The translations under genes and the position numbers were made by a program. A DNA stretch of 64,000 bases, from positions 124,001 to 188,000 of the forward strand of contig NZ_CP065047.1 in assembly GCF_015689175.1 (NCBI RefSeq), given 5' to 3'. Of the stretch, positions 738-13,880 are shown piece after piece. Each line of letters opens with the position of its first letter. The stretch's first letter is position 1. The notes under the pieces are model-generated. The model was not told where the DNA came from and did not search any database. It saw only the letters and a list, made by a program, of their open reading frames with translations. Source of the DNA: Mycobacterium kubicae (GTDB taxonomy: Bacteria > Actinomycetota > Actinomycetes > Mycobacteriales > Mycobacteriaceae).

Positions 738-754
738 TGCAGCGAAGATTGACA
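738..754 (-). repeat. 17-nt remnant of the island hairpin repeat
   Basis: The bases TGCAGCGAAGATTGACA are the exact reverse complement of the right arm of the 91-bp element at 13790-13880 (its bases TGTCAATCTTCGCTGCA). The flanks do not match well, so this is a half-copy in inverted orientation. Confidence 0.5.
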
Positions 755-1129
755 CGCACGCACTGATTAGCTAACAACAACGTCAGCTCGGCTAAACTCT
801 GATCGCAGTCGTGGGTCAGGCGTGCCTACACGACGACGGGTTGTCGAACTCGCCGATAAGGGTCTCGGAGGGCTGACGCATTCGGGTGTTATCGGCTGAC
901 GGTCGACAGTGATGTAGTTACGGGCCGGCCGCATATGCCTCTGAGTGTCACGTTGAATATGCCGCGTGTGCTCTACCCCGACGCCGTGCCGATTCGCCGA
1001 AAGGCGGCGGACTGACGGTCGCCAGCATCGAAGCGCTTGCTGCTCAGGGCCGGGGGTTGTACTGGTCGCCACAGGGCGAAGTTACGTCTGACGGCAAAAC
1101 TTTGGCCATGGCTTAGGTACGCTTCGGCG
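755..1129. other. 375-bp stretch without a recognised gene, upstream of the deaminase
   Basis: No open frame here resembles a protein. One inverted repeat stands out: GCCGATAA at 852-859 pairs perfectly with TTATCGGC at 889-896 around a 29-nt loop. In Vibrio cholerae the AvcD deaminase is held inactive by a small RNA (AvcI) encoded just upstream, so an RNA in this stretch would be in the expected place. That is analogy only; nothing here was matched to AvcI. Confidence 0.3.
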
Positions 1130-2542
1130 ATGGCAACCAGTGATCCCGAGCTGGTCATCGGTTTAGTGGCGCCGCTAGGCACGAGCACTACCGATCTGAC
1201 CAAGGAGATCCAGGGCTCGTTGTCGCGCTTCGGTTACAAGGCCGTGCCGATCAAACTGTCGGAGCTACTGGGGACTGCTGCGCCGGCGCCTACCGGTGAG
1301 ACCGAGGATCAGCGGATCCGGCGGCTGATAGAAGCTGGGAACCAGTTCTGCAAAGTCAACGAGGATGCCGCCGCAGTTGCGCGTTTGGCGGTCAGCGCGA
1401 TTCAAGCACGGCGGATCGAATTGATCCGAGTGGACGGCGATGATCGACCGATCGATGAGATTACAAGTAGGCCGCGGACGGCCTACATTGTGCAGTCGCT
1501 GAAGCGGCGGGAGGAGGTACAGCTGCTGCGAGAGGTCTACGGCAATCAGTTCATCCTGATTGGCAGCCAGGGCAGTGTCGCCGAGCGAACGCACAGCCTG
1601 CTTCAACTAAATTTGTCCTCCGCCGATGACAAGAAAAAAGACGACATCGTCAAGATCTTGATCGAGATCGATGCCGACGAACGGGAACAGCTTGGGCAGA
1701 ACGTAAACCGGACATATCCACAGGCTGACCTCTTCATCCGAAACAACGACCGCGCGGATATCGACCGGGTGTTCGACCTTTTGTTTCAGAAGCCTGAAGC
1801 TCCAACGATCGGCGAGTACGCGATGTATGTGGCATTGGCCAGTAGTGCGCGCTCACTTGCGGCTAGCCGCAAGGTCGGCGCCGCGATCGTCGTTGACGAC
1901 GCGGTCATCGCCACCGGCTATAACGAGGTGCCGCACGGTCAGATCCCAGACATCTTGGAGGGTGAGGACACCAGCGAAACGTTCAAGCGGGAGAACTTGC
2001 GGGACACCCTGAAACGATTGAAGGAATCCGGCCTACTCGCCGACAAGCTTGAAGCTGACGACGACGGGGTGGCGCTCGCCGCCGCGGCGCTCGACAAGGG
2101 TGAGCTGTTGAGCGTTATCGAATATCAGCGTGCAGTGCACGCCGAAGCCAAGGCGATCGACGACGCAACGGTCCGCGGAGTGTCGCCCGCTGGTGGAACC
2201 CTGTTTGTCACGACCTACCCCTGCCACCTGTGCTACAAGCAAGCCCTATCGGTGCGCCTAGCCCGCATCGAGTACATCGAGCCGTACCCGAAGAGCCGGG
2301 CGGTTGCGATGTTCTCCAAGGAAGCCGAAGACAAGTTGGTCCCGTTCGCCGGCGTGGCGCCGCGCCGCTACATGCAAATTTTTGGTGATCGGCCTGCGTT
2401 TGTTGCTGATATGGCCGGGAAATTTCGTAAGTACGACCGGAAGTTCGCGCAGCCACTTGTCGGTGAGATGCGAGAAGATGAGGATCGAGCCGAGAGAGAG
2501 CGGCGAGCGATCAACGCATTGAAGAAGGAGTTCCGAACATGA
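1130..2542 (+). CDS. avcD: AvcD-type antiphage cytidine/deoxycytidylate deaminase
   Basis: 470-residue two-domain protein. The N-terminal ~230 residues are P-loop-like: GLVAPLGTSTTD near the start resembles a degenerate Walker A and the fold looks like a nucleotide kinase. The C-terminal half is a zinc deaminase, with VHAEAKA (H337, catalytic E339) and PCHLC (C365, C368) as metal ligands. This architecture matches the AvcD/DCD antiphage deaminases, which remove dCTP/dCMP during infection so that phage DNA synthesis fails. ATG 1130 is chosen because it precedes the GLVAP strand; the 31 upstream in-frame residues look non-coding. The stop overlaps the start of a 58-codon gene (ATGA). Which nucleotide it deaminates cannot be read from the sequence. 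Confidence 0.85.
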   Translation: MATSDPELVIGLVAPLGTSTTDLTKEIQGSLSRFGYKAVPIKLSELLGTAAPAPTGETEDQRIRRLIEAGNQFCKVNEDAAAVARLAVSAIQARRIELIRVDGDDRPIDEITSRPRTAYIVQSLKRREEVQLLREVYGNQFILIGSQGSVAERTHSLLQLNLSSADDKKKDDIVKILIEIDADEREQLGQNVNRTYPQADLFIRNNDRADIDRVFDLLFQKPEAPTIGEYAMYVALASSARSLAASRKVGAAIVVDDAVIATGYNEVPHGQIPDILEGEDTSETFKRENLRDTLKRLKESGLLADKLEADDDGVALAAAALDKGELLSVIEYQRAVHAEAKAIDDATVRGVSPAGGTLFVTTYPCHLCYKQALSVRLARIEYIEPYPKSRAVAMFSKEAEDKLVPFAGVAPRRYMQIFGDRPAFVADMAGKFRKYDRKFAQPLVGEMREDEDRAERERRAINALKKEFRT

Positions 2543-2715
2543 CCTCACCGTTGTCGCGATTGACACCACAAGATCGCGCGGCCCTGAGCAAGTCGGCAGA
2601 TGACCTCAGCGACATTGATGATCGCCGCCTCGCACGCATCGACGCTGGATTTAAGCGAGCCTACGAGACGGCGCGCGGCATTGCCAACGACACACTCAAT
2701 CCGCTGACGCACTGA
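2539..2715 (+). CDS. Small protein (58 aa) coupled to the deaminase
   Basis: ATG 2539 overlaps the deaminase stop in an ATGA arrangement, so translation is probably coupled. The 58-residue product (starts MTSPLSRLTPQD, ends NDTLNPLTH) is charged and likely helical, with an acidic middle (DDLSDIDDRR). It has no membrane segment, no cysteine and no motif I recognise. Being locked to a nucleotide-depleting enzyme, it could be a regulator, an inhibitor or a subunit; none of these is shown. The overlap and the normal codon pattern support a real gene. Confidence 0.6.
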   Translation: MTSPLSRLTPQDRAALSKSADDLSDIDDRRLARIDAGFKRAYETARGIANDTLNPLTH

Positions 2716-2949
2716 AGATCTGGATGCTTGCCCGGGAGCCCTCAGTGGAGAACCTCTACGTCAAAACTTGCGTTACCAGTTGAGAAGTCAATGCGCTCAA
2801 CAGAATCGGCTTAGCCGCATTCGCATGATTAGCAATCATCAGCAGTTGTTCCGCAAGTCGACTAGTCGAGACCGACAGAGCGGGGTGTTATCGCTGGAAG
2901 AAGAAGTCGCGGTGACCTAACCAGGACTGCTGGTACTCGGGAGATGCCG

Positions 2950-4491
2950 TCAACGGCGCGGTCGCCGAGCAAGCACATAGTTGGTGGCGCGTCGCATCGC
3001 AGACTCGGCTGAATCAACAAGTCGCAGAAACGGGTTCGGTTTTCGGTCCCTGCGCTCGGCAACGATCCGTCGCCAGCTGTCCTGACTCGCGGTCAGGATG
3101 GGTCGCCGGTTGCCGGTTGCGGTCTCGGATTCGTAAACGCAGTGCTCACCGCGTTCCGCGGTCGAGTGTTCGAGGTGGTGTGCGGCGAGGATGTAGCGCA
3201 GCGGTGCGGGGACACCGCGTCCTCCGGGGTGGGCCGCGAGGCTCACGAACTGGGCGAGTAGCGCCGCGCTCACGCTCGCCGAAAGGACGGCGACATTCTG
3301 ACGGGCGGGTGCCGGCCGGCCCGCCCGCTCGATATAAGAGGGATCGTCGAGCAAGCCCCGTCGGTCCAGGGCGAGCTCGCCCAGATCAAGCTGGCCGATG
3401 CAGACCATGCAAGGGCGGTTCGGCACCAGAGTGTGGGCGCGCCAGACCCCTCCACGGAGCCGACCGTCGTCAAACGTGTCGAGAGCGATGCCGCCGTCAA
3501 TCACTGGTACGAGGTCGCTGTAGGCAATCAGATTGAGCACCGCCCGCGGCCAGGGCCGGTCCACGCAGGAGAAGATCACGTCGTAGTCCAACGCGCTCCG
3601 CAGTCCGACGGGATCGCTGACACTTGTCTCGTGCTTCACTGGCGTGAAGTTCTCGGCCGTCGCGGCCGACGTCATCAGCCGCTCGGCGACGTCGACCTTG
3701 GCCCTGCCCAGGGCGGCGTCGAGACGTGTCGCGCCGATCATGCGATCCAAGTTGACGGATTCAACGGCATCGAAATCCATCACGCCGACCTCGAGGAGCC
3801 CGGTCGCTGCGAGACGCTGGGCCACATCGAGGCCCACGCTGCCGGTTCCGACGACAAGCACGCGCAGGCGCGCGATCGACGCCTGCATGCGGTCTCCCCA
3901 CGCTGACACCGTGCGTTGCTGCGAACCGGTCGGCGGCGGGGGCGGGCGCAGGTCGTCGTTCCAGCAGACGACGAGCCGGTCGGACACGGACCGCACCGAC
4001 TCAGCCCAGCGCGGCTGGGCGCGGTCGAACCAGATGCGTGCCGACCAGGTGTCGTCGCCGGCGAGTGTCATACCGACCAGCGGCAGACCTGTGTAGGCGC
4101 GGGCGACGCGCTCGTAGTCGGCTTCAGTGTCGTGGTCGACGATGCTCATGCCTTGCCATCCGCGACCCCTCGGGTGCGAGTGCAGCAGTACGAGCCCGGC
4201 GTTGTCGGCGCGCGCCTGAGCTGCGGCCCGCAGCACATAGGCGCTCGTGAACGACGCGTTGCCGTGGACAAGGCGTTCACCATCGCGGGGCATGATCACG
4301 CGGTTCACCAACGCGGTCATGCGCTGCACGCCCGTGGAGGGCACGAAGGTTGCGGCGAGCACGTCTTCCTGGCCGTCGGAGCGCAGCAGGTGCTCACGCA
4401 TAACCTTGTGCACCGAGCCTGTCATAGCCACCGACAGCCGCGCGGACGCGCGCAGCGGGAGGGTAGTTGGAGTCCGGTCGTCGCCGCTCAT
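2950..4491 (-). CDS. JAB peptidase-E1 activating enzyme fusion (ubiquitin-like conjugation)
   Basis: 513 residues. Residues ~20-165 are a JAB/JAMM metalloprotease domain: H104-S-H106, S116 and D119 form the HxH...SxxD zinc motif. Residues ~205-430 are an E1/ThiF adenylating domain: nucleotide loop GTGSVG (215-220), then DFDAVESVNLDR (D239, N247, R250), which binds ATP-Mg, and DRPWPR. C361 and C364 form a CxxC, perhaps zinc-binding. The JAB domain would trim or remove the ubiquitin-like protein and the E1 would adenylate and thioesterify it. It is the third gene of a leftward operon with an E2-like and a two-domain ubiquitin-like gene, an arrangement known in bacterial conflict loci. The catalytic E1 cysteine could not be assigned. 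Confidence 0.85.
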   Translation of the reverse strand: MSGDDRTPTTLPLRASARLSVAMTGSVHKVMREHLLRSDGQEDVLAATFVPSTGVQRMTALVNRVIMPRDGERLVHGNASFTSAYVLRAAAQARADNAGLVLLHSHPRGRGWQGMSIVDHDTEADYERVARAYTGLPLVGMTLAGDDTWSARIWFDRAQPRWAESVRSVSDRLVVCWNDDLRPPPPPTGSQQRTVSAWGDRMQASIARLRVLVVGTGSVGLDVAQRLAATGLLEVGVMDFDAVESVNLDRMIGATRLDAALGRAKVDVAERLMTSAATAENFTPVKHETSVSDPVGLRSALDYDVIFSCVDRPWPRAVLNLIAYSDLVPVIDGGIALDTFDDGRLRGGVWRAHTLVPNRPCMVCIGQLDLGELALDRRGLLDDPSYIERAGRPAPARQNVAVLSASVSAALLAQFVSLAAHPGGRGVPAPLRYILAAHHLEHSTAERGEHCVYESETATGNRRPILTASQDSWRRIVAERRDRKPNPFLRLVDSAESAMRRATNYVLARRPRR

Positions 4492-4494
4492 GGT

Positions 4495-4872
4495 CTACGC
4501 CGCAGTGACGGCGAGTGAGAGAACGCCGCGAACGTGGCGCAGCCATGCTGTCGCCGGCGGGACCGACGTGTCTGTGAACGCGAATTCGCGGGAGTGTCGG
4601 CGCCATCCGGGTGGGCAATCGGTGGTGTCGGTGTTGGTGTTTTCGATCACCACGCTGTCGCGCAGATGCACCCAGTGCGGCGGTACCAGGGGCCAGTTCT
4701 CGACCTCGACCTGGCTGACGCCGGTCTCGACCTTCAGGCCGGATAAAGCGCCGCCGATCGCGAGGACCTCGTACATCAGGCGGCCGGGCTCGACGCGCAC
4801 CGGCGACCCCGCGAGCGTGATGTCGTCGATGAAGCGACGTGCCGCCGAACCCGGCGGTGGCAGCTCCGTCAC
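4495..4872 (-). CDS. E2-like protein (prokaryotic E2 family E type)
   Basis: 125 residues. The core PPHWVHLRDSV, then DCPPGW-RRHSREF, matches what I recall of Prok-E2_E, small UBC-like proteins that sit beside multi-ubiquitin and JAB-E1 genes. C86, in the TTDCPPGW segment, is the only cysteine and so the likely thioester residue; H93 follows. Its start overlaps the stop of the ubiquitin-like gene by 4 bp, and its stop lies 3 bp before the JAB-E1 start, so the three are one transcript and probably translationally coupled. The role as a transfer enzyme is from the family, not shown here. Confidence 0.75.
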   Translation of the reverse strand: MTELPPPGSAARRFIDDITLAGSPVRVEPGRLMYEVLAIGGALSGLKVETGVSQVEVENWPLVPPHWVHLRDSVVIENTNTDTTDCPPGWRRHSREFAFTDTSVPPATAWLRHVRGVLSLAVTAA

Positions 4873-5291
4873 GCGACGGGGCCTGCGCGTCGAGCGGTGA
4901 CGAACTCATCCCCGTCGCTGATCGTCACGATCTGGTCGGCGGTGAAGGTCTGCGGACCGTTCGCGCCGTTCACGCGCGCCAAGTCATAACGGGCCGGATC
5001 GACACCCGCCAAGCGCATCAGGTCGGCGGCGGTTTGGTCGTCGTCCCAGGTGCTGTGGCGCTCGCCGTCGATGGTGAAGCGCACCTTGCGGCGGGTGCGG
5101 AACCGCTGGCGGTCTCGGGGATTGACGATCTGCTTGTCCTTGACATGGGTCTCGACCCCGTGCTTGTCGACGATGAAGAGGTCGTAGTCGGCGGGATCGC
5201 GGCCGGCGAGCCTCACCAACGCCGCAGCCTCGAAGTCGTCGTCGTTGACGGGGTGCGTCACCCCGTCGATCTCGACGCGGATGTCGGTCAT
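4869..5291 (-). CDS. Two-domain ubiquitin-like (multi-ubiquitin) protein
   Basis: 140 residues made of two tandem beta-grasp repeats, about 3-66 and 69-134. They share a pattern: 'EIDGVTHPV...LVRLAGRDPADYDL' against 'TIDGERHS...LMRLAGVDPARYDL'. This is the multi-ubiquitin architecture. It would be the modifier activated by the JAB-E1 protein and moved by the E2-like protein. The C-terminus is RRAGPVA rather than a bare glycine, so trimming by the JAB domain to expose ...RRAG is an attractive but untested idea. ATG 5291 is chosen over upstream codons because GGAG lies at a good distance before it. First gene of its operon, divergent from the HTH-ImmA pair. Confidence 0.8.
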   Translation of the reverse strand: MTDIRVEIDGVTHPVNDDDFEAAALVRLAGRDPADYDLFIVDKHGVETHVKDKQIVNPRDRQRFRTRRKVRFTIDGERHSTWDDDQTAADLMRLAGVDPARYDLARVNGANGPQTFTADQIVTISDGDEFVTARRAGPVA

Positions 5292-5388
5292 GACGGTGTC
5301 TCCGATCTGTTCGCGCACGTGTCCGTGCTGACATGCGGCGCCCACGAACTATGCTTGGTGTATCCGGTAACCCACTCTACACGACATT

Positions 5389-5411
5389 GTTATTACCTTG
5401 GAGGTAACAAC
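5389..5411. promoter_or_regulatory. Palindromic operator candidate between ubiquitin-like operon and HTH-ImmA genes
   Basis: GTTATTACC (5389-5397) and GGTAACAAC (5403-5411) form an inverted repeat with one mismatch around a 5-nt centre. A further GGTAAC occurs at 5366-5371. It sits in the 339-bp divergent intergenic region (5292-5630), about 100 bp upstream of the ubiquitin-like gene. The XRE-type HTH protein encoded to the right is the natural candidate to bind it. Nothing else in this gap is recognised. Confidence 0.5.
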
Positions 5412-5630
5412 ATTTTTCTGGCGTGGTCTTCCCCGAACGTTCACGGGGTCTGCACATCCGGCGAGGCGCTGGCGAGGGCGTGCCCCGCGTCTCCGGCCGC
5501 CGCGCGTCTACTGCTGTCGGTGATCGCGAACGCTCCGACACTTTTCGCAGTGGCACGTTTGCGCAGTATTGGGATACGGCTGACCGATCCCGCCCAGGGC
5601 CGCATAGTCGTCGAACATAAGGAGGTAGGC

Positions 5631-5774
5631 ATGCATGCCGCTGTCTTGAACCGGAGCGGACGCGTACTCGAAGGTGACGGCGAGTCGTTTTGGACCGCCG
5701 CTCTGCAGTCGTCGGCGCTACGCGTCGATGACATTCGCGTCGACGGCACGAGCTTTATGCGAAACGCCGGCTGA
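5631..5774 (+). CDS. Small protein (47 aa) coupled to the HTH-ImmA/IrrE gene
   Basis: A near-perfect Shine-Dalgarno, AAGGAGG at 5619-5625, precedes ATG 5631. The frame runs 47 codons to TGA, whose A starts the ATG of the next gene (TGATG), a classic coupling overlap. The product (starts MHAAVLNRSG, ends SFMRNAG) has no cysteine, no membrane segment and no motif I know. Small genes before HTH-ImmA/IrrE proteins are often toxins or partners, but it does not look like HigB/RelE. The ribosome site and coupling make it a likely real gene. Confidence 0.6.
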   Translation: MHAAVLNRSGRVLEGDGESFWTAALQSSALRVDDIRVDGTSFMRNAG

Positions 5775-6913
5775 TGGCCGCCGAGTCTCGCACTGGCCCT
5801 GGCGTCACGTACGTGGCGACTCAATTCGAACCGGATTGGGCCGAGCCGCCGGGTTCACTCATCAAGACTGAACTCGACGCTCTCGAATATTCTCAATCTG
5901 ATGTGGCGGCACGCGCGAATGTGAGCACCAAGCATTTCAATCAATTGCTAAACGGACATGTTCCACTATCGCCCGATATTGCAATATCTTTAGAGCGTGT
6001 CTTGGGAATTCCGGCGGAGATTACGTTGCGAATGGACGCCACCTGGCAGGCGGAGAGGGTACGGCGCGCATCGTCTTCTGTTCTGGCGGGATTGAGTCGA
6101 TGGATCGATAAATTTCCTCGCGAAGCGCTTCGAAAGTATCAAATAATAGATTTTCAGAAGGCGGTCGAGGAGCGCGCAGACGAGCTCTTGCGCTTCTTCC
6201 GCGTGGCCGATGAGAAATCGTTCGACAGGATCTGGCTAGCGCCGCAAGTGAATTATCGTCGAAGCCAGAAGTTCACCGTCGACCCCTATGCGACAGCGTT
6301 GTGGCGCCGTCTCGCCGAGGTAAAGGCGGAAGCTCTGGTACCCTCCGCGAGGGCCTACGATGCGGTGAAATTAAGACGCGCCGCCGAGCGGATACCACCG
6401 CTGACTCAAATGGACTTGCGACGCGGTTTCCAAAACGCGATCGACATTCTCGCCGATGCCGGAGTGTTACTAGTCTTTATTCCTGAAATTGACGGTACGC
6501 GAATATCGGGTGCGACGTGGTGGCTCACTCCTTCTCATCCCATCATTGCGTTAACCGGGCGGTATCGCTTCGTCGATACATTTTGGTTCACAATGGTTCA
6601 TGAAATTGCTCATGTATTACTGCATCCGAAAAGGGTGACATTTATGCATTTTGATCGAAAGGGGTCTGTTTCCGATGACCAGGACCGGCAGGAGACTGCG
6701 GCCGACTCGTTTGCGGCCGATACATTCTTAACCGATAAGCAGCGCTGCGCGTTGGTGCTGTTGACGACGGTTGCCGATGTTGAAGAATTCGCTGCGAAGA
6801 CGAAGTTGTCCGTTGGGGTGGTAGCGGGTCAGTATGCCCACTGCACGGGAAACTGGTCGCGCTTCGGGAAAATGAGGGAATCCGTAGACATCGCCGCAGC
6901 GATCGCTCATTAG
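5774..6913 (+). CDS. XRE/HigA-like HTH protein with ImmA/IrrE metallopeptidase domain
   Basis: 379 residues. Residues ~28-82 are a HigA-type helix-turn-helix (DVAARANVSTKHFNQLLNG). Residues ~215-350 are an ImmA/IrrE zinc peptidase with HEIAH (H276, E277, H280) and the third-ligand helix QETAADSFA (E307). Such proteins bind operators and, when triggered, cleave repressors; others are antitoxins. The gene is coupled to the 47-aa gene before it and divergent from the ubiquitin-like operon, with a palindrome between. It could thus control that operon or its own toxin. Codons are AT-richer than in the rest of the window, in keeping with recent transfer. Confidence 0.85.
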   Translation: MAAESRTGPGVTYVATQFEPDWAEPPGSLIKTELDALEYSQSDVAARANVSTKHFNQLLNGHVPLSPDIAISLERVLGIPAEITLRMDATWQAERVRRASSSVLAGLSRWIDKFPREALRKYQIIDFQKAVEERADELLRFFRVADEKSFDRIWLAPQVNYRRSQKFTVDPYATALWRRLAEVKAEALVPSARAYDAVKLRRAAERIPPLTQMDLRRGFQNAIDILADAGVLLVFIPEIDGTRISGATWWLTPSHPIIALTGRYRFVDTFWFTMVHEIAHVLLHPKRVTFMHFDRKGSVSDDQDRQETAADSFAADTFLTDKQRCALVLLTTVADVEEFAAKTKLSVGVVAGQYAHCTGNWSRFGKMRESVDIAAAIAH

Positions 6914-7186
6914 ACACGAGAAGGATCGATAGCGGGACGACTAGGGCCTCGGAGCCATGACCCCAGCGCCGTGATACCGAGTTCGTCCAACGTGTGGCGA
7001 GCCGAGCCCGGAACAGCAATTCTTGATGGCAGCAGTTGCTGCGGCTATTAGAACGGACTATGGCGGTCGGATAATTTTCCGCGCAAGAACAACTGCTTTC
7101 CGAGACGCCGCGGACGTATCGGACTTCATCGACAGAGCCGAAAACTTGACGCGATCTCGCGGGCACCACGGTCAGCGCGAGGTGGA

Positions 7187-8422
7187 GTGCACAATCGTCC
7201 GATGGGTACCTCGAGACGCGAACCGAACGATGGTCGGATCCGCCGTGATCGAAATAGCGGCGGGTGGTACTTCGGCACGAAGTTTCGGGGAAGAGAGGTC
7301 TACTCGGACCGAATAATTGCCCGCCTACCCGACCTCGACGGGCATACGGCGATAGACCTGCGTCGCGCGTTGCGCGCCGACGTACGCGCGGGTATCGAGA
7401 ATTCGGGACTACTGATAAGTGCTGACGATGACGCCTACTACGACGACGAGGAATGCTCACAAGAGCCAGTCTCTTTCGGTCTAAATGGCGACGCGCTATC
7501 AATCTTCTTCGAGTTCACCACTAACACCTGGATGGCTCCAGATCGGCACAGCGATGAGGCTGCGCCGTTCCGCCGCCGAGACGAACTCGAAGACGGCGGC
7601 GAGTACTACGACGAAGACGCGGCTGTAGCGCACGTCTTGTCAGGAGTGCTGAAAACTTTCATGATGCGAAATGGCTTGGAACTCTGCCTCATTGAACTCC
7701 ACCCGCAGTATGCGTATCCGCCGTGGCGGTGGCGTGCCGCCGCCACTGTGCAGGTCCGTGGGAAAAGCATTACGGATTGCGTGGCGCTTGCGAAAGACGC
7801 GATAGCCTTGGCCGAAGCATTCGGGCAGAACGGTAATCTCAATCGCCAGATTGCCGCTGATCTGGTTCGCGCCGGGCACGTTTCATCCCTGTTGGGTCAG
7901 CCTGAGGGGCACTGGCTCGAGGTCAAGAGACAGCACTTTGAACTGCCCGGCCCGGTTGGAACCATCAGGCTCGCCGAAGCGGTCGCAAAGTTCGCAAACT
8001 CAGAATTGGGAGGGCTCATTGTCATCGGGCTTGCTGCGAAGAAGATTCCCGGTGGGGAAGTGATACACAGACACTGTCCTGTACCGATCGATGGCAAGAC
8101 GGTCAAGCGGTATCGCCAGGCGCTTGAGTTCCGGCTCTACCCCCCGCCCGATCGCCTGACTATCGAACCTATCGGAGATCCAGGGAACCTTGGGGTGATT
8201 CTGATTGACATCCCGCCCCAGCCGGAAGAACTCAAGCCTTTCCTTGTTCATGGCGCGATCGTGAACGGCGCAGTGGAGGGAGCATTCATTAGTATCGTCC
8301 GCCGCAGAGGTGAGTCCTCTATACCGACAACCGCGTCGATGATTCACTCGACACTTGCCGCTGGACGGGCGCTCCTAAGACGTGGCGAATTGCGAGGCCA
8401 GAACGAGGATTTCGGCAACTAA
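7187..8422 (+). CDS. Schlafen/AlbA_2 domain protein
   Basis: 411 residues. The N-terminal ~230 residues are unfamiliar, with an acidic stretch (DDDAYYDDEE). Residues ~245-360 are the AlbA_2 (Schlafen-type nucleic-acid-binding) domain: GHWLEVKRQHF, then KFANSELGGLIVIGL. AlbA_2 occurs in RNA/DNA-binding and conflict-related proteins. GTG 7187 (GAGG just before it) is used; ATG 7202 is the alternative. A second frame, 7023-7316, is also open and overlaps the 5' end, so the N-terminus may be altered by a frameshift. It lies between HTH-ImmA and the TIR/NTPase block. Exact activity unknown. Confidence 0.75.
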   Translation: MHNRPMGTSRREPNDGRIRRDRNSGGWYFGTKFRGREVYSDRIIARLPDLDGHTAIDLRRALRADVRAGIENSGLLISADDDAYYDDEECSQEPVSFGLNGDALSIFFEFTTNTWMAPDRHSDEAAPFRRRDELEDGGEYYDEDAAVAHVLSGVLKTFMMRNGLELCLIELHPQYAYPPWRWRAAATVQVRGKSITDCVALAKDAIALAEAFGQNGNLNRQIAADLVRAGHVSSLLGQPEGHWLEVKRQHFELPGPVGTIRLAEAVAKFANSELGGLIVIGLAAKKIPGGEVIHRHCPVPIDGKTVKRYRQALEFRLYPPPDRLTIEPIGDPGNLGVILIDIPPQPEELKPFLVHGAIVNGAVEGAFISIVRRRGESSIPTTASMIHSTLAAGRALLRRGELRGQNEDFGN

Positions 8423-8794
8423 AGCGACGTGGCGACTGCGCCAACATTCCTTCAGAACGCACCGGTAGATTCGGAGGAGAAGTCGGCTTTCAGACGCAAA
8501 ATGGTCGCGCGCGTTGATCGACCGCATCCGGACAGCCGGGTCGATTAAGCTCGTACGAACTTTTGCAACGAACATTAACAAGCCCACCCGACACGCCGAA
8601 GTCTTGTCAAAGTAGCCAGGCGTGTCCTGTCAATCTTCGTTGCATCTCGACATTCTTCTATAGACGGCGAATTTCCCTAATTGCAAGACTTTCGGCTGAG
8701 GCGAAACACCGTCTGGAGCGCGTTTCCCCTCGAAGAATACCGGTGGAGAGTTGCGGCGCCGTTTCCGGTAGCGGCGTTTCGGTAAAGTCGAGAC
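8423..8794. other. 372-bp gene-free stretch holding hairpin repeat copy 1
   Basis: Apart from the 91-bp hairpin element at 8564-8654 nothing is recognised. The reading frame through the repeat from TTG 8563 encodes a peptide resembling the one read through copy 2, but this follows from the DNA similarity and is not evidence for a gene. Confidence 0.6.
8564..8654. repeat. 91-bp hairpin repeat, copy 1
   Basis: Matches 13790-13880 in direct orientation over the same 91 bases with 11 differences. The outer arms pair TGCAACGAA with TTCGTTGCA; the inner arms pair GACACGCC with GGCGTGTC. The loop holds TCAAAGTA, identical in both copies. Position 5 of the left arm is A here and G in copy 2, and its partner changes from T to C, so pairing is kept. 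It lies 140 bp before the TIR gene. Confidence 0.8.
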
Positions 8795-9943
8795 GTGGCG
8801 CATTCAAAAGACTTCTTCATCAGCTATAACAAGGCGAACCGTGCTTGGGCTGAGTGGATCGCGTGGGTGCTTGAAGCCGAAGGGTATAGGACGGTAGTCC
8901 AGGACTGGGATTTCAAGCCCGGCGGTAATTTTGTCGTGGAGATGGACACCGCCACTAAAGAGTGCGCGCGGACGATTGCGGTCCTGTCGCAGGATTATCT
9001 AGATGCCGAATTCACCGTGCCGGAATGGGCAGCGCAGTTCGCAACTGATCCGAAAGGTCTCAACCGCAGGCTTGTTCCGGTGCGCGTGGACTCCTGTGAC
9101 ATCGAGGGCCTGCTCGGCCAGGTCATCTACTGTGATCTCGTTGGCCTCGATGAGGAAGCTTCGCGAAAGCGTCTATTGTCGCAGCTGAGCCCGGGGCGTA
9201 CGAAACCCGCTGTCGCACCGCCATTTCCAGGTGCCTCAAGTGGCACACCCTTCCCCATTCCGAAACAGCCGAGTAGCTCAAGCAAACGAGCGCTCTGGAG
9301 ACCTCTGGCTAAGCCGATTCATCCCCAATGGAGGGGAGACACCATGCACGGTGGATACTCGCGATCGACGCTTGAGCTGCACAGCATCCCAATCGATCAA
9401 CAGACCCTCGAGGCTCGGTCACTACGGGAGTTGGCCAACGCCCTGCCAGCACTCGGTCGACAAAGCGGGTTGTTCGACCAAACGGAAGCTGTCGAAGCTG
9501 GTGCAGCAGAGGACCGTGCTGAAGCACATGCAACCGGTGCCCAGGGCTGGCGTGGCTCAAAAGGGATTGCCGTTGAGAGAGATCGGGGTGTGAGCAGTTG
9601 GCTCCCGTTGCCACACGGAAGCCTCGGGTCGGTCTTCGACGAGGAAGACGTAAGTAATCGCCTGGTCGCCGCATTGGCACTGCACGCAAGCACGGGTCTG
9701 CACGAAGAAGGGGAAGTGGCGCTGGCACTTTCGATCGAGCCGATCAGCATGTTAATGGTAGGACGGGCGGGTGAAGTTGAGACGCGTTCCTCTGCGCAAT
9801 TGCTCTACACGATGGCGCCAAAGTCGGCACTCCGCATAGAACCGACCGATTCAGTCCCCGTCTCCGCGCTGGGGGCTCGCGCGGCGGAGATCGCGCACGA
9901 ACTGACGGCCAGGCTGGTGCTACGTCTAGCCGCGATTCGCTGA
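8795..9943 (+). CDS. TIR-domain protein
   Basis: 382 residues. Residues 1-~135 are a TIR domain of the bacterial TIR_2 kind: FFISYNKANRAWAEW at the start, VVQDWDF, then the box LSQDYL-DAEFTVPEW. E77 in PEW is the best candidate for the catalytic glutamate of a NAD+-cleaving TIR. A proline/serine-rich linker (~140-180) joins a C-terminal region (~190-382) I do not recognise. TIR proteins in defence loci usually hydrolyse NAD+ or make a cyclic-ADPR signal when a sensor detects phage. The P-loop NTPase downstream could be that sensor. GTG 8795 is used because the domain begins at once. Bracketed by hairpin repeats together with that NTPase. Confidence 0.85.
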   Translation: MAHSKDFFISYNKANRAWAEWIAWVLEAEGYRTVVQDWDFKPGGNFVVEMDTATKECARTIAVLSQDYLDAEFTVPEWAAQFATDPKGLNRRLVPVRVDSCDIEGLLGQVIYCDLVGLDEEASRKRLLSQLSPGRTKPAVAPPFPGASSGTPFPIPKQPSSSSKRALWRPLAKPIHPQWRGDTMHGGYSRSTLELHSIPIDQQTLEARSLRELANALPALGRQSGLFDQTEAVEAGAAEDRAEAHATGAQGWRGSKGIAVERDRGVSSWLPLPHGSLGSVFDEEDVSNRLVAALALHASTGLHEEGEVALALSIEPISMLMVGRAGEVETRSSAQLLYTMAPKSALRIEPTDSVPVSALGARAAEIAHELTARLVLRLAAIR

Positions 9944-10071
9944 GGAAATGGGCGGTGCAGCGGTGTACGACGAAAGGCTCAAGTGTGAACGTCTTGCTCT
10001 AACGCTGAGCAATTCTCGGGCGCAATCGTCGCGCGGCAATCTGTTCCGCACAACGCCCTCGGTATCGGAGC

Positions 10072-10551
10072 TCATGAGTCGCCTGGACTGGATTTGGCCG
10101 CGATCGCTGCGACAAGGGCGTCGATGAAGCCATCAGCGCGTAGGCGTAGGTGTCCCGTGCAGCTTTCCACGTCCACGACTAGATCTTCGCCGCCATCGAC
10201 GACAACAGTTATTTGGCGGCGGCCATGGCCAAAGTGGTAGTCGTCGAGGGTGACCTCGGCGGCTAAGTGCACTGTTCTGATGTTGGAGATCAGGTGAATC
10301 GAGCCGGTGACCGTCAAACCATTCTCGTCGCCCCTCGCCGTCAGTTGTCCGAGCGCGTTGCCCTTCAGCCAGTAAAGTTTTCGCAGACGCCCTTGCTCGT
10401 CTCGCATGCCCGCCCAGGCATCAACCGGCCAGCCTGTAAAACTGTTGACAGCTAACGCGAATGCCGAACTGGCTTCGCCATCTGGCGACCATCTGTCGCC
10501 TCCAGTCAGTTCCTCACGAATCGCCTCAACATCGTTCATAGGTGCGGACAA
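10072..10551 (-). CDS. Hypothetical protein (159 aa)
   Basis: I do not recognise this protein. It is acidic and soluble, with an alternating pattern in the C-terminal half (e.g. GLTVTGSIHLISNI, TVVVDGGEDLVVDV) that suggests beta strands, and no membrane segment. TTG 10551 is used because GGAG lies 7 nt before it; ATG 10539 is the alternative but has no ribosome site at a proper distance. It is on the opposite strand to the TIR and NTPase genes, inside the block bounded by hairpin repeats. It might be an immunity or accessory component of that block, which is inference. Confidence 0.6.
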   Translation of the reverse strand: MSAPMNDVEAIREELTGGDRWSPDGEASSAFALAVNSFTGWPVDAWAGMRDEQGRLRKLYWLKGNALGQLTARGDENGLTVTGSIHLISNIRTVHLAAEVTLDDYHFGHGRRQITVVVDGGEDLVVDVESCTGHLRLRADGFIDALVAAIAAKSSPGDS

Positions 10552-10747
10552 TATGCGCTCCGACCGACAAGCGCGCTCCCCGGCGGCAAACCCATCTCAA
10601 GGGTTGCTCTGATGGCGCTCCGCGGCGGGGTCAGCGCCATAGCCTCTGATTTCTCGATCCGGCACGAGCAGCCACGTGTGCTCACGGCTATTTCGCTTCG
10701 AGCGAAAGTCTCAGCTCGCATACGTGGAACGGGGACAATATGAGCTA

Positions 10748-10933
10748 ATGCTTGAATACGAGTGTTCAGCGAGCGGGCAGCCGGTATCCGGCACTCCGCC
10801 GACCAGTATGTCGTGCGCAAGTTGTGGCAGATCCGTGAACACCGTCCAGGACATAGATGGTGCCTGGGTCGTCGAGATCCACAGCATGATGGCCGCAACC
10901 GAGAATCGGCGCCGCCAGCACGACACGTCGTAA
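10748..10933 (+). CDS. Possible small zinc-ribbon protein
   Basis: A 61-codon frame from ATG 10748 (in-frame GTG 10676 possible) gives a peptide with YEC, then SCASCGRSV and a short strand AWVVEIH, which looks like half of a zinc ribbon (C, CxxC). The rest of the 10552-10995 gap shows nothing. The start has no convincing ribosome site, so this is tentative. Confidence 0.35.
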   Translation: MLEYECSASGQPVSGTPPTSMSCASCGRSVNTVQDIDGAWVVEIHSMMAATENRRRQHDTS

Positions 10934-10995
10934 TTCGAAACGTCCTAGCGTGCGGCTAATCGGTTCTGTCGGATACAGCTGGGAGGGTGATCCCT

Positions 10996-13763
10996 ATGCG
11001 CCCCGAGGTGTGGCAGGTGGTTACTAGCACCGCGCCCGTTGTGCTCGTCACCGGGGACACCGGCACCGGAAAGTCTTCGGTCCTTCAATCAACTCTCGCG
11101 GAGTACGCGAGCACGGTCGTGGCGCCGCCGGTATCAGTGTGCCTTTTCGACAGTGGGGCGCTGCAAGTGGCGCTGTTTGAGGCTTTGGCGACAGTGCTTG
11201 CCACTGCGGGACCCGGCGAATCAAAGTGGCGCGATCTGGCGAAGCGCTTTCGGCATGCGACCCGTGAAGCGGCCCTCGAGGTCGGGAAGGCACTCGCGGA
11301 TGCGGTCGTCGAGGAGGTGGTTGAGTTCGCGAAGACCAAGCTTGGTGAGAACGCCGGCAAGGGATTGCTCAAGTTTTGGAAGTCACTGAAAAAGGACACG
11401 AGCCCAGACCTACGACGTACGCTCCGTGCGCAGTCCGACACCAACGTGGTTCGACTGCTAATGCAAATGAGCGACGAAGTCGCCAGCGTTGTTGGTCGAG
11501 ACCTCGTCATCACCCTGGATGAGGGCAACCGTCTCAGCGATGACGATCAACGAATTCTCGCTTCTATCGCTGCCGCACCGGCGCGTCGCGTTCGGATCGT
11601 GATCGCGTGGTCGACTGCGGAAATCGATTCGTTGCCGGGCTTGGTGAGACTCAGAAAGTTGAGCGTGCCGGAGATTGAGGTCGCGGGCTTAAGTCGTGAG
11701 GACATCGAACGGTGGCTCACGAGTGTGGGTATGGCACAGATGACCGACGACATTCACTCGCTAACGGCGGGCTACCCGCTATTGGTTGAAGGCCTCGTCG
11801 CATACCTGCGAAGCGGCGGCCCCCTCGACCGATACTCAGCACCAACGCTTTTCACGACGTGCTGGCCGACGCGCTCACGCGACTGCCGACAGACGCCCAT
11901 CATGCTGCACGCAGACTGTCTGCTTTCGCGTACCCGCTGCCCGAGAGCGAGATTCCGGGCTATCTCGGCGTTGACGCTGTCGCGTGGGGTGCAATGCGCA
12001 ATGCTCTTGAACGCGAAAAAGTTTTCTCCGTGCCCTACCCCGACGGCACGTGGTTCCACGAAACACGGCGCGCTTACCTATGGGGCGCTGTCTTAACCAA
12101 GCCAGAACGCGAGCAAGTCGGGCAGTCGGCATATTCGCGGCTACTCGAGCAGCAGCGCCGTGCCGAAGCCACCTACTCCGCAGGCCTCTTTCGGCAGATA
12201 TCTGCCTTGGCTCCCTACGCCCACGAAAGCCTTGCCGCCAGCCCCACATTGGCGTCGGTTATAGGCCTGGATGTCGACCAGCTGGGCGTACTCGCAGCCG
12301 TCATCGAATTGACCAACGTCGAATCAGGATCACCCACGCCTGCAGACCAGGTGGTTATCCATGCGCATACCGCATACGGGGTCGATCGAGCCAAAGCGAT
12401 CTACGCCCTTCCGGCCCTTCAAGAGCTGAAAATTGTCGATTTAAAAGAGATTTCAAGCGATCCGCCCGATACTACAGAGTCGGTGACATATCTGCTGCTC
12501 GATTACGAATCCGACATCGTCGCACGGGGTCGGATCCAGGCAGTATTGGGCAAGGCCGCGGTGCCCCATTTGGCTGATCACGTCGTCCGCACTCATCTGG
12601 AGCGTGTGAGGCTCGAGTCATATGCAATGATCACCCAGGTTGGCCACGCCGACGCTATGCAAGTCATCGATAATGCCAATCTCGTTCGCGCGCCGGCACT
12701 ATTCCGGCGTATTGGCGATCCAGCTCTCGGCATATGGCTTCGCTACGGCGACCAACCAGTAACTGTGGTCGGAGTTTTCAATACGACCGCCGACCGCGCT
12801 GCCGCCGAGCGCGAGATCGCCGACCTTTCGAGCAGCTCATTCGGCCGACGCGTAGTAGTAGACCGAACCTTTAAAGATCCGACACACACAATCCCTTCGC
12901 TCAGGTTCATGCGAGCTGTTTATTTCGCGACAGGTCTCAGCGTCCATTCCGATCATCGCGAATACTGGCTCGACCATCCGCCGCCGCTACCGATGCTCGA
13001 GTTCGCGCAAAGGCAAGTCGACCTACTCGGCCTATTGCGCTCGGAGACAGACGAACTCGAACGCGAAGTCTACGGCCTAACCCAACTATCCGGAGTTGCC
13101 ATCGCACGCCAGGGCAAGACGGAATACCGCCTTGACGTCCAGGGAACAGCACACGTCTACTCGATGGACTTTAATAAGACAACTGACATCCTGGCAAACA
13201 GGTCACTCGTGTCAGCCCGAATGGAGCTGGCGCTGGGCCTTACATCAACTGCCTCGACGAAGCACCTAACCACGCAGACATGGCAAGGAGAGCGGACTCA
13301 AGATCCCGTGGTCGAACTGCTGGGCACGCTTCGGAAACAAGCCGAAAAATTCAATACGCGTCAACCGCGTACCGTCGTACGCCTCGAAAAGGATTTACTG
13401 CAAGCTCAATTGGCGGAAGCGCACATACGCGAGCAACATCTCGCGCGTAAGTTATCTGAGACAATCACCATCGGCGGCGAGCGCGGAATTCGCCCCATGA
13501 GAGCGCTGCGCCTCGCGATATTGACGCATGGGCGCCGGGATCGACCAACTCAGCGTGGAGCCATCTGCGCATGGCCTGAAGGAGACCCGGATGACGTCGA
13601 GATTCGCTACGTGTCAGATGTACCGCACGACACCGCGGAAGGTGCTTACAAGGCGGCATTCGGCACTGACGCCGACACGACGGACCTCCACGGCAGCATG
13701 CTGCCGGCAGTGCTGCCGTCCCTACTAGGTTTTGCCGATAACGAGATCGAGCTCGCGGATTGA
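10996..13763 (+). pseudogene. STAND-like P-loop NTPase, one-base frameshift near 11846
   Basis: A large NTPase (about 920 residues if repaired) now lies in two frames. The first frame has Walker A GDTGTGKS and Walker B LVITLDE, then a winged-helix-like lid (LSREDIERWL...YPLLVEGL). It loses sense after 'DRYSAP'. The second frame starts 'AFHDVLADALTRLP' at about 11850 and runs to TGA 13763. One missing base near 11846 (tcagcaccaacgctt) would restore the frame; no slippery heptamer is seen, so it is a mutation or sequencing error. The second frame has no known domain; a region near 13380-13450 looks like a short coiled coil. ATG 10996 has GGGAGG 9 nt before it. With the TIR gene it resembles a sensor-effector pair. 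Confidence 0.7.
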
Positions 13764-13789
13764 TTCGATAGGTGGCTGAACTGGGGTTA

Positions 13790-13880
13790 TGCAGCGAAGA
13801 TTAGCGAGCCCCCGCGACACGCCGACGTTTCGTCAAAGTAGGCAGGCGTGTCCTGTCAATCTTCGCTGCATCTCGACATT
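13790..13880. repeat. 91-bp hairpin repeat, copy 2
   Basis: Direct copy of 8564-8654. Here the outer stem is perfect over 13 bp (TGCAGCGAAGATT with AATCTTCGCTGCA) and the inner stem over 8 bp (GACACGCC with GGCGTGTC). It starts 26 bp after the NTPase stop and marks the right edge of the defence-type genes. Confidence 0.8.

Follow-up and report, generated by a model that had tools for sequence, protein, structure and literature searches.

Twin 91-bp elements of Mycobacterium kubicae are very probably cargo-side ends of a Tn7-like transposon family

A 64,000-nt stretch of the Mycobacterium kubicae genome (contig NZ_CP065047.1, positions 124,001 to 188,000; hereafter, the window) carries two direct copies of a 91-bp element, at 8564-8654 (RE1) and 13790-13880 (RE2), on either side of a TIR gene and a P-loop nucleoside triphosphatase (NTPase). 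What are these elements, and did they move the genes that lie between them? A preliminary description took them for hairpins maintained by a compensatory change, i.e., for a structure under selection as DNA or RNA, and considered that they might be recombination ends that had moved the TIR/NTPase module. Our analysis indicates that each 91-bp element is very probably the cargo-side end (RE) of a mycobacterial Tn7-like transposon family, and comparison of the sequences suggests that such elements were moved by transposition. As to their kind, the idea of recombination ends was thus well founded, since the elements are transposon ends; however, RE1 and RE2 represent one kind of end and point the same way, so that they do not delimit a single TIR/NTPase module between them.

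Both copies were confirmed at equal length, with exactly 11 of the 91 positions differing, and the repeat lies far above chance in BLAST (87% identity across 94 bp, E 6.9e-27). No copies besides RE1 and RE2 were detected in the 6.0-Mb M. kubicae genome. The inner arms (GACACGCC and GGCGTGTC) are unchanged between the two copies, and the outer inverted repeats comprise 17 nt at 88% in RE1 and 25 nt at 80% in RE2. Folding beats dinucleotide shuffles on both strands of both copies (z -3.7 to -5.1). These strong inverted repeats and good folding energies, together with the fact that the copies share their orientation and have cargo between them, would suit an RNA or DNA hairpin selected for its fold, e.g., an attC-like single-strand recombination site of integron-like cassettes. 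The fold was analyzed in an alignment of 43 REs, in which the two of the window were joined by 41 chromosomal and plasmid copies. The A-T to G-C swap is indeed present (alignment columns 8 and 82), but it does not behave as a compensatory change: no covariation was observed, and the swapped pair is G-C in 19 copies, A-U in 6, G-U in 4, C-G in 1 and broken in 13. In the 25-pair stem 88.8% of the alignment cells were paired, versus 88.5% when the letters of the 3′ arm were shuffled among sequences; 84 of the 500 shuffles equalled or exceeded the observed value, and four double-change pairs were found against 3.8 expected. Slid versions of the stem paired at 29-41% only, far below the real register, and therefore the inverted repeat itself is conserved. 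RNAalifold did not recover the proposed hairpin, or any such consensus, from the RE alignment, and the Rfam scan of the window returned nothing at gathering scores, so that neither the covarying base pairs of a structured RNA nor a described RNA family was found. Selection on a structure is therefore not borne out, given that excess covariation, a consensus fold and an Rfam match were all missing. The conservation of both arms in sequence, without covariation, is what would be expected of protein-binding sites, and the hairpin arises because the inner side of RE carries an inverted copy of the terminal sequence. With stems often broken, and with the partner ends, 5-bp duplications and transposition genes described below, which fit a transposon, a fold-selected hairpin or attC-like site is very improbable.

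The outer edge of RE is a 26-bp terminal repeat, TGTCGAGATGCARCGAAGATTGACAA, which is common to the partner end (LE). When RE2 was used as a BLAST query, matches were obtained in 72 of the 297 genomes of the genus. Many of them were limited to roughly the outer 25 bp and were found at some distance in the opposite orientation, and a second end type, LE, was therefore recognised. The pattern TGTCGAGATGCARCGAAGATTGACAA, with up to three mismatches, is present in 72/297 genomes, a set not identical to the 72 found by BLAST, and the reversed control pattern gave no match in any of the 297. Among neighbouring repeats within 130 kb, counted only on contigs with at least two pattern matches (single-match contigs being excluded), 24 faced inward (5 of them miniature elements), 8 faced outward (4 of them abutting) and 12 were in tandem. 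LE opens with the same 26 bp as RE and diverges after them. Counted from the outer edge, cores like TTGACAA start at +19 and at +42, each in 40 of the 43 REs; in LEs they were found at +19 (20/22) and +41 (18/22), with a slightly looser pattern and a hand-picked set that includes one RE fragment (L110). A pair of direct sites spaced by about 22-23 bp, present in LE as well as in RE, matches what TnsB sites should look like. The family hence has paired ends, a shared terminal repeat of the TGT...ACA type and several putative TnsB-type sites, as would befit a Tn7-like element. No match to RE1, nor to the one LE tested, was found in the phage collection.

The genes that would act on these ends lie inside some of the LEs. 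Among the mycobacterial loci that were fetched, 30 LE-like ends have a second core and are not miniature elements (one of them, L078:4324, resembles a cut RE more); tblastn with Tns proteins gave tniQ or tns matches at most 6.5 kb inside 12 of the 30. TniQ, TnsA, TnsB and TnsC are all encoded inside seven LEs (L073, L094, L098, L101, L102, L105 and L106, the last with TnsA split over two frames), the farthest gene being 8.6 kb in; partial tns sets were found at L065, L083 and L108, and TniQ fragments only at L067 and L045. TniQ (PF06527, 81.7 bits) and TniB (36.1 bits) scored above their cut-offs, as did TnsA (NF033179 TnsA_like_Actin, 143.4 bits, cut-off 110). The four proteins of a Tn7-like system are thus encoded together at the level of the family, TniQ, TnsA and TnsC scoring over a Pfam or NCBIfam cut-off and TnsB below its Pfam cut-off.

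Insertion would be directed to the neighbourhood of a conserved gene, dnaB. In at least 23 of the 72 pattern-positive genomes (17 from genome coordinates and 6 from fetched loci) an LE lies 8-18 bp past the point where the dnaB match, with its stop codon, ends, and reads away from it; 16 of the 30 LE-like ends are at dnaB, which is the commonest docking site among the ends read. The preliminary description had expected that stems would stay intact in further copies and that these would not be scattered at random: other copies do break the stems, but random scatter does not apply, the partner end being often at dnaB. Identical 5-bp flanks, i.e., exact target-site duplications, were observed in 7 of 19 LE-RE pairs (G207, G230, G261, G129, G052, G011 and G242), as compared with 2 of the 272 combinations when 17 pairs were cross-paired. 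In G242 the duplication pairs the LE with an RE 109 kb off and not with an internal RE. Near-duplications were seen in G092, with a 1-bp shift, and in G075, at 4 of 5 positions. In the outer flank of L017, a glmS-like gene (by eye) reads towards the RE and ends about 500 bp short of it.

A rival reading assigns the ends to tyrosine recombinases of nearby plasmid genes and not to TnsABC. On the M. abscessus plasmid NC_021278.1 an RE has a tyrosine recombinase gene about 470 bp away, two related Rhodococcus plasmid repeats are near recombinase genes, and TnsF, a recombinase-like target selector, is described for Tn6022 in the available text of PMC10293859. On mycobacterial chromosomes, however, tniQ-tnsABC is found directly inside LEs, and a 5-bp duplication fits DDE transposition, which makes ownership of the ends by such recombinases extremely improbable. 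A tyrosine recombinase was noticed by eye in one chromosomal unit, the G230 element. The annotation near three plasmid REs names tyrosine recombinases near two and no IntI, chromosomal loci not having been searched for the latter. The integron or cassette idea was abandoned after the LEs, the duplications and the tns genes had emerged. The elements resemble integron attC arrays in having same-orientation sites with exchangeable cargo between them, and differ from them in the lack of fold covariation and in the 5-bp duplications, LE/RE pairs and tns genes.

Several observations weigh against the assignment to a Tn7-like family that docks at dnaB and against the mobility of the window's units. 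No tniQ or tns match was found within 6.5 kb of 18 of the 30 LE-like ends, in the sequence examined, and 14 of the 30 are not at dnaB in that sequence. TnsB scores 22.1 bits with Pfam rve, under the cut-off of 32.6. No exact 5-bp duplication is present in 12 of the 19 LE-RE pairs (G092 and G075 included), nor in any of seven miniature elements, one of which has it with a 1-bp shift. In the window itself, tblastn detected no tns genes in the two units; as none were found in either unit and the second has no LE, neither should move alone. A clean empty site for the window's array was not found either: the sequence downstream of dnaB in relatives gave three weak matches to the window, at 23-28% identity.

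The proposed route is as follows. TnsB, a DDE transposase, would bind the two direct cores of RE and pair RE with LE, cleavage of the other strand being the task of TnsA. The insertion would be guided to a near-fixed spot a short way behind dnaB by TnsC (AAA+) together with a TniQ/TnsD-like protein some 575 residues long, and a 5-bp duplication would be left. The newest insertion would adjoin dnaB and displace older units outward, and a tandem array would result, of which the window would be the dnaB-distal part, with unit 1 (LE at 738-822, ubiquitin-like and dCTP-deaminase defence cargo, and RE1) and unit 2 (TIR/NTPase cargo and RE2, its LE lost). We infer these biochemical steps, the order of insertion and the movement of the window's units by such a route from sequence data.

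How far does the window itself agree with this route? The worn LE at 738-822 scores 54-61 in local alignments to three LEs, and 15-19 was obtained with two other stretches; in a scan of the island it scores 58, the best score in one shuffle being 21. Its homology starts 8 bp inside the terminus, and pattern searches missed it because the outermost 8 bp have been lost or changed. Given this LE, unit 1 extends from about 738 to 8652 and is closed by RE1. Unit 2, with the TIR and NTPase genes, occupies 8653-13878 and has no LE; from RE1 to position 9000 local alignment found no LE similarity above the 15-19 background. The M. kubicae dnaB gene ends at C1 93952 and the window starts at 124001, so that the REs lie 39-44 kb beyond dnaB (RE2 at 44 kb), both in the predicted orientation. 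Another end, probably Tn7-like, TGTAGCTTCTCA..., is found 13 bp behind the dnaB stop codon (G000:C1:93966) and is followed by a tnsA remnant with 65% identity over 46 residues to the TnsA of the M. abscessus plasmid. A TetR gene to the right of RE2, used as a probe for the empty site, gave an uninformative result. The array could alternatively be debris, with the REs left by chance after decay and the module of unit 2 brought in by another route, as the missing LE of unit 2, the lost terminus of the LE of unit 1 and the NTPase gene split in two frames would suggest. Both REs are near consensus, however, and face the way predicted relative to dnaB, from which they are 39 and 44 kb distant, and the debris account, which we regard as unlikely, bears only on the history of unit 2 and not on the identity of the elements. 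An array of moved units is a reasonably likely account of the exact history of the two units. We make no claim for a possible second-family end at window position 486, for which the only evidence is one short match. Three TniQ-domain matches with identical scores were seen in M. kubicae, one on the chromosome and one on each of the two other contigs (C1:5212085, C2:30076 and C3:17343), i.e., another TniQ element; these matches are not near ends of the RE/LE family.

Ends of different kinds abut one another at several loci. By eye, an end type TGTNGGTTCTCA stands beside 13 of 44 RE flanks, and six further flanks adjoin a first-family LE. Of the 30 best-matching dnaB loci, the downstream stretch could be parsed in 24 (6 remained unparsed), and with a strict pattern a first-family LE was found in four of the 24 and the second type in three; several degenerate ends were also noticed by eye behind dnaB, and L145 has a tnsA match there. 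Since both end types are found behind dnaB, the site has been used repeatedly. An assignment of TGTNGGTTCTCA to an IS21 end was set aside, as it sits 13 bp behind the M. kubicae dnaB stop codon and a tnsA remnant follows. A second Tn7-like family, of which it would be the LE, is more likely, although an IstA-like open reading frame (by eye) in the L027 flank speaks otherwise, and the binding motif of this family probably varies. After TGTNGGTTCTCA, short motif repeats occur that differ by copy, such as TGTCCAAT, GACTGCA and ATGGCGG. The gaps between abutting RE and LE measure 2-16 bp and look GCN/CCA-like by eye, which goes beyond what one 5-bp duplication could account for.

The smallest units are miniature elements of about 192 bp that consist of LE plus RE and are similar to one another (loci L043, L047, L054, L082 and L083); some genomes have several. 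They are often located in sequence with a three-base period, e.g., GTTGTTGT or ACCACCAC. We advance as a tentative proposal, to which we give somewhat less than even chances, that dnaB offers, at its 3′ end, a general mycobacterial docking site at which at least two Tn7-like families (with LEs that start TGTCGAGATGCA and TGTNGGTTCTCA) insert serially, and that units of LE, cargo and RE, down to the miniatures, are moved in trans by a resident TnsABC plus TniQ. If this were true, the dnaB locus would be a cassette-like array for defence and metabolic genes.

Tn7 has ends of the TGT...ACA type with several TnsB sites each, makes a 5-bp duplication, and encodes tnsA, tnsB and tnsC together with TnsD; it inserts at attTn7, at a fixed distance behind glmS, and its tns genes are at the target-proximal end. 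The link between TnsD and glmS is treated in PMC2918618, as far as its available text goes. The mycobacterial family is like Tn7 in end type, TnsB-like sites, duplication length, the tns plus TniQ set, a set insertion distance from a conserved gene and the target-proximal position of the tns genes. It is unlike Tn7 in its target at the 3′ end of dnaB, in having TniQ beside LE ahead of tnsA, in its abutting mixed units and tns-less units, and in its distinct end sequences. The available text of PMC8649781 describes typical Tn7-like ends as arrays of ~20-bp inverted repeats, and an Actinobacteria-dominated Tn7-like clade with ~20-bp subterminal repeats and defence-rich cargo, of which, it states, no member had been experimentally characterised. 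The dnaB-targeting family shares core genes, ~20-bp subterminal repeats and defence-rich cargo with this clade, a likeness by description and not by tree; the words Mycobacterium and dnaB are absent from the main text of that paper. Tn7706 of Rhodococcus erythropolis, a 19-kb multicopy unit that is plasmid-borne in other strains according to the available text of PMC12915292, is also actinobacterial and has tnsA, tnsB, tniQ, tniB and inverted-repeat ends, as compared by description and not by end sequence; dnaB is absent from the main text of that paper.

The Tn7-like attachment sites named in the available texts of PMC8649781, PMC10293859, PMC11406308, PMC12231136, PMC12915292 and PMC10991518 include glmS, tRNA genes, parE, comM, guaC, yciA, ffs and rsmJ, and dnaB was not found as such a site in the literature searched, mostly without subscription papers. 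The dnaB attachment site, the mixed tandem arrays and the tns-less units seem to be new, none having been found described in that literature. With RE and LE as a ruler, mobile defence and metabolic units can be delimited in many mycobacterial species, and the two ends direct attention to dnaB as a chromosomal docking site. The ends, the target, the duplication length and a candidate selector protein are now available for an actinobacterial Tn7-like family.

The features of the two units are collected in the table.

Table. Ends, terminal repeats and genes of units 1 and 2 (positions in the window)
Feature	Position	Strand	Basis
RE1, cargo-side end of unit 1; outer terminus 8652	8561..8652	+	aligned with 42 other copies; TnsB-like cores
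RE2, cargo-side end of unit 2; outer terminus 13878	13787..13878	+	same basis as RE1
RE1 26-bp terminal repeat TGTCGAGATGCAACGAAGATTGACAG	8627..8652	-	1 mismatch to family repeat
RE2 26-bp terminal repeat TGTCGAGATGCAGCGAAGATTGACAG	13853..13878	-	1 mismatch to family repeat
RE1 inner inverted copy of the terminal repeat (outer stem arm of the preliminary description)	8564..8580	+	17 nt, 88% complementary to 8628-8644
RE2 inner inverted copy of the terminal repeat	13790..13802	+	inside 25-nt, 80% inverted repeat 13778-13802/13858-13882
Worn LE (tns-side end), unit 1	738..822	+	local alignment to LEs of three other genomes
Unit 1 deaminase, PADLOC dCTPase defence family	1037..2542	+	E 5.8e-115; PF00383
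Unit 1 ThiF/E1-like protein	2950..4491	-	PF00899
Unit 1 small partner of ThiF protein	4495..4872	-	41% identical to neighbouring protein on pCHL
Unit 1 multiubiquitin-domain protein	4869..5345	-	PF14452
Unit 1 helix-turn-helix + ImmA/IrrE-like protein	5774..6913	+	PADLOC PD-Lambda-2_B
Unit 1 protein adjoining RE1	7187..8422	+	no Pfam, PADLOC or NCBIfam match at E 0.001
Unit 2 TIR-domain protein	8795..9943	+	PF13676, E 3.9e-31
Unit 2 P-loop NTPase, frames 10987-12096 and 11859-13763	10987..13763	+	AAA_16/AAA_22 in first frame; no Pfam match in second

The two overlapping frames of the NTPase could reflect a frameshift, an assembly error or two genes. A general tie of the elements to defence genes, about which the preliminary description had asked, did not hold: some LE-RE units in other genomes carry, by eye, TetR regulators, methyltransferases, an FAD-dependent oxidoreductase or an amidase, and defence genes are therefore not the sole cargo of these ends, as judged by eye in some units. 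The ThiF-like protein of unit 1 shares 57% identity, over 453 residues, with a protein of the Nocardioides plasmid pCHL, on which the homologues of ThiF and of its small partner lie side by side in one repeat-bounded unit; that unit and unit 1 have dissimilar ImmA-like proteins. On pCHL (L062 15207-35386) three repeat-bounded units follow one another, one with ThiF/ImmA-type genes, and the same five bases, ACGGC, are found at two of the unit junctions. The annotation of pCHL also lists drug-resistance genes.

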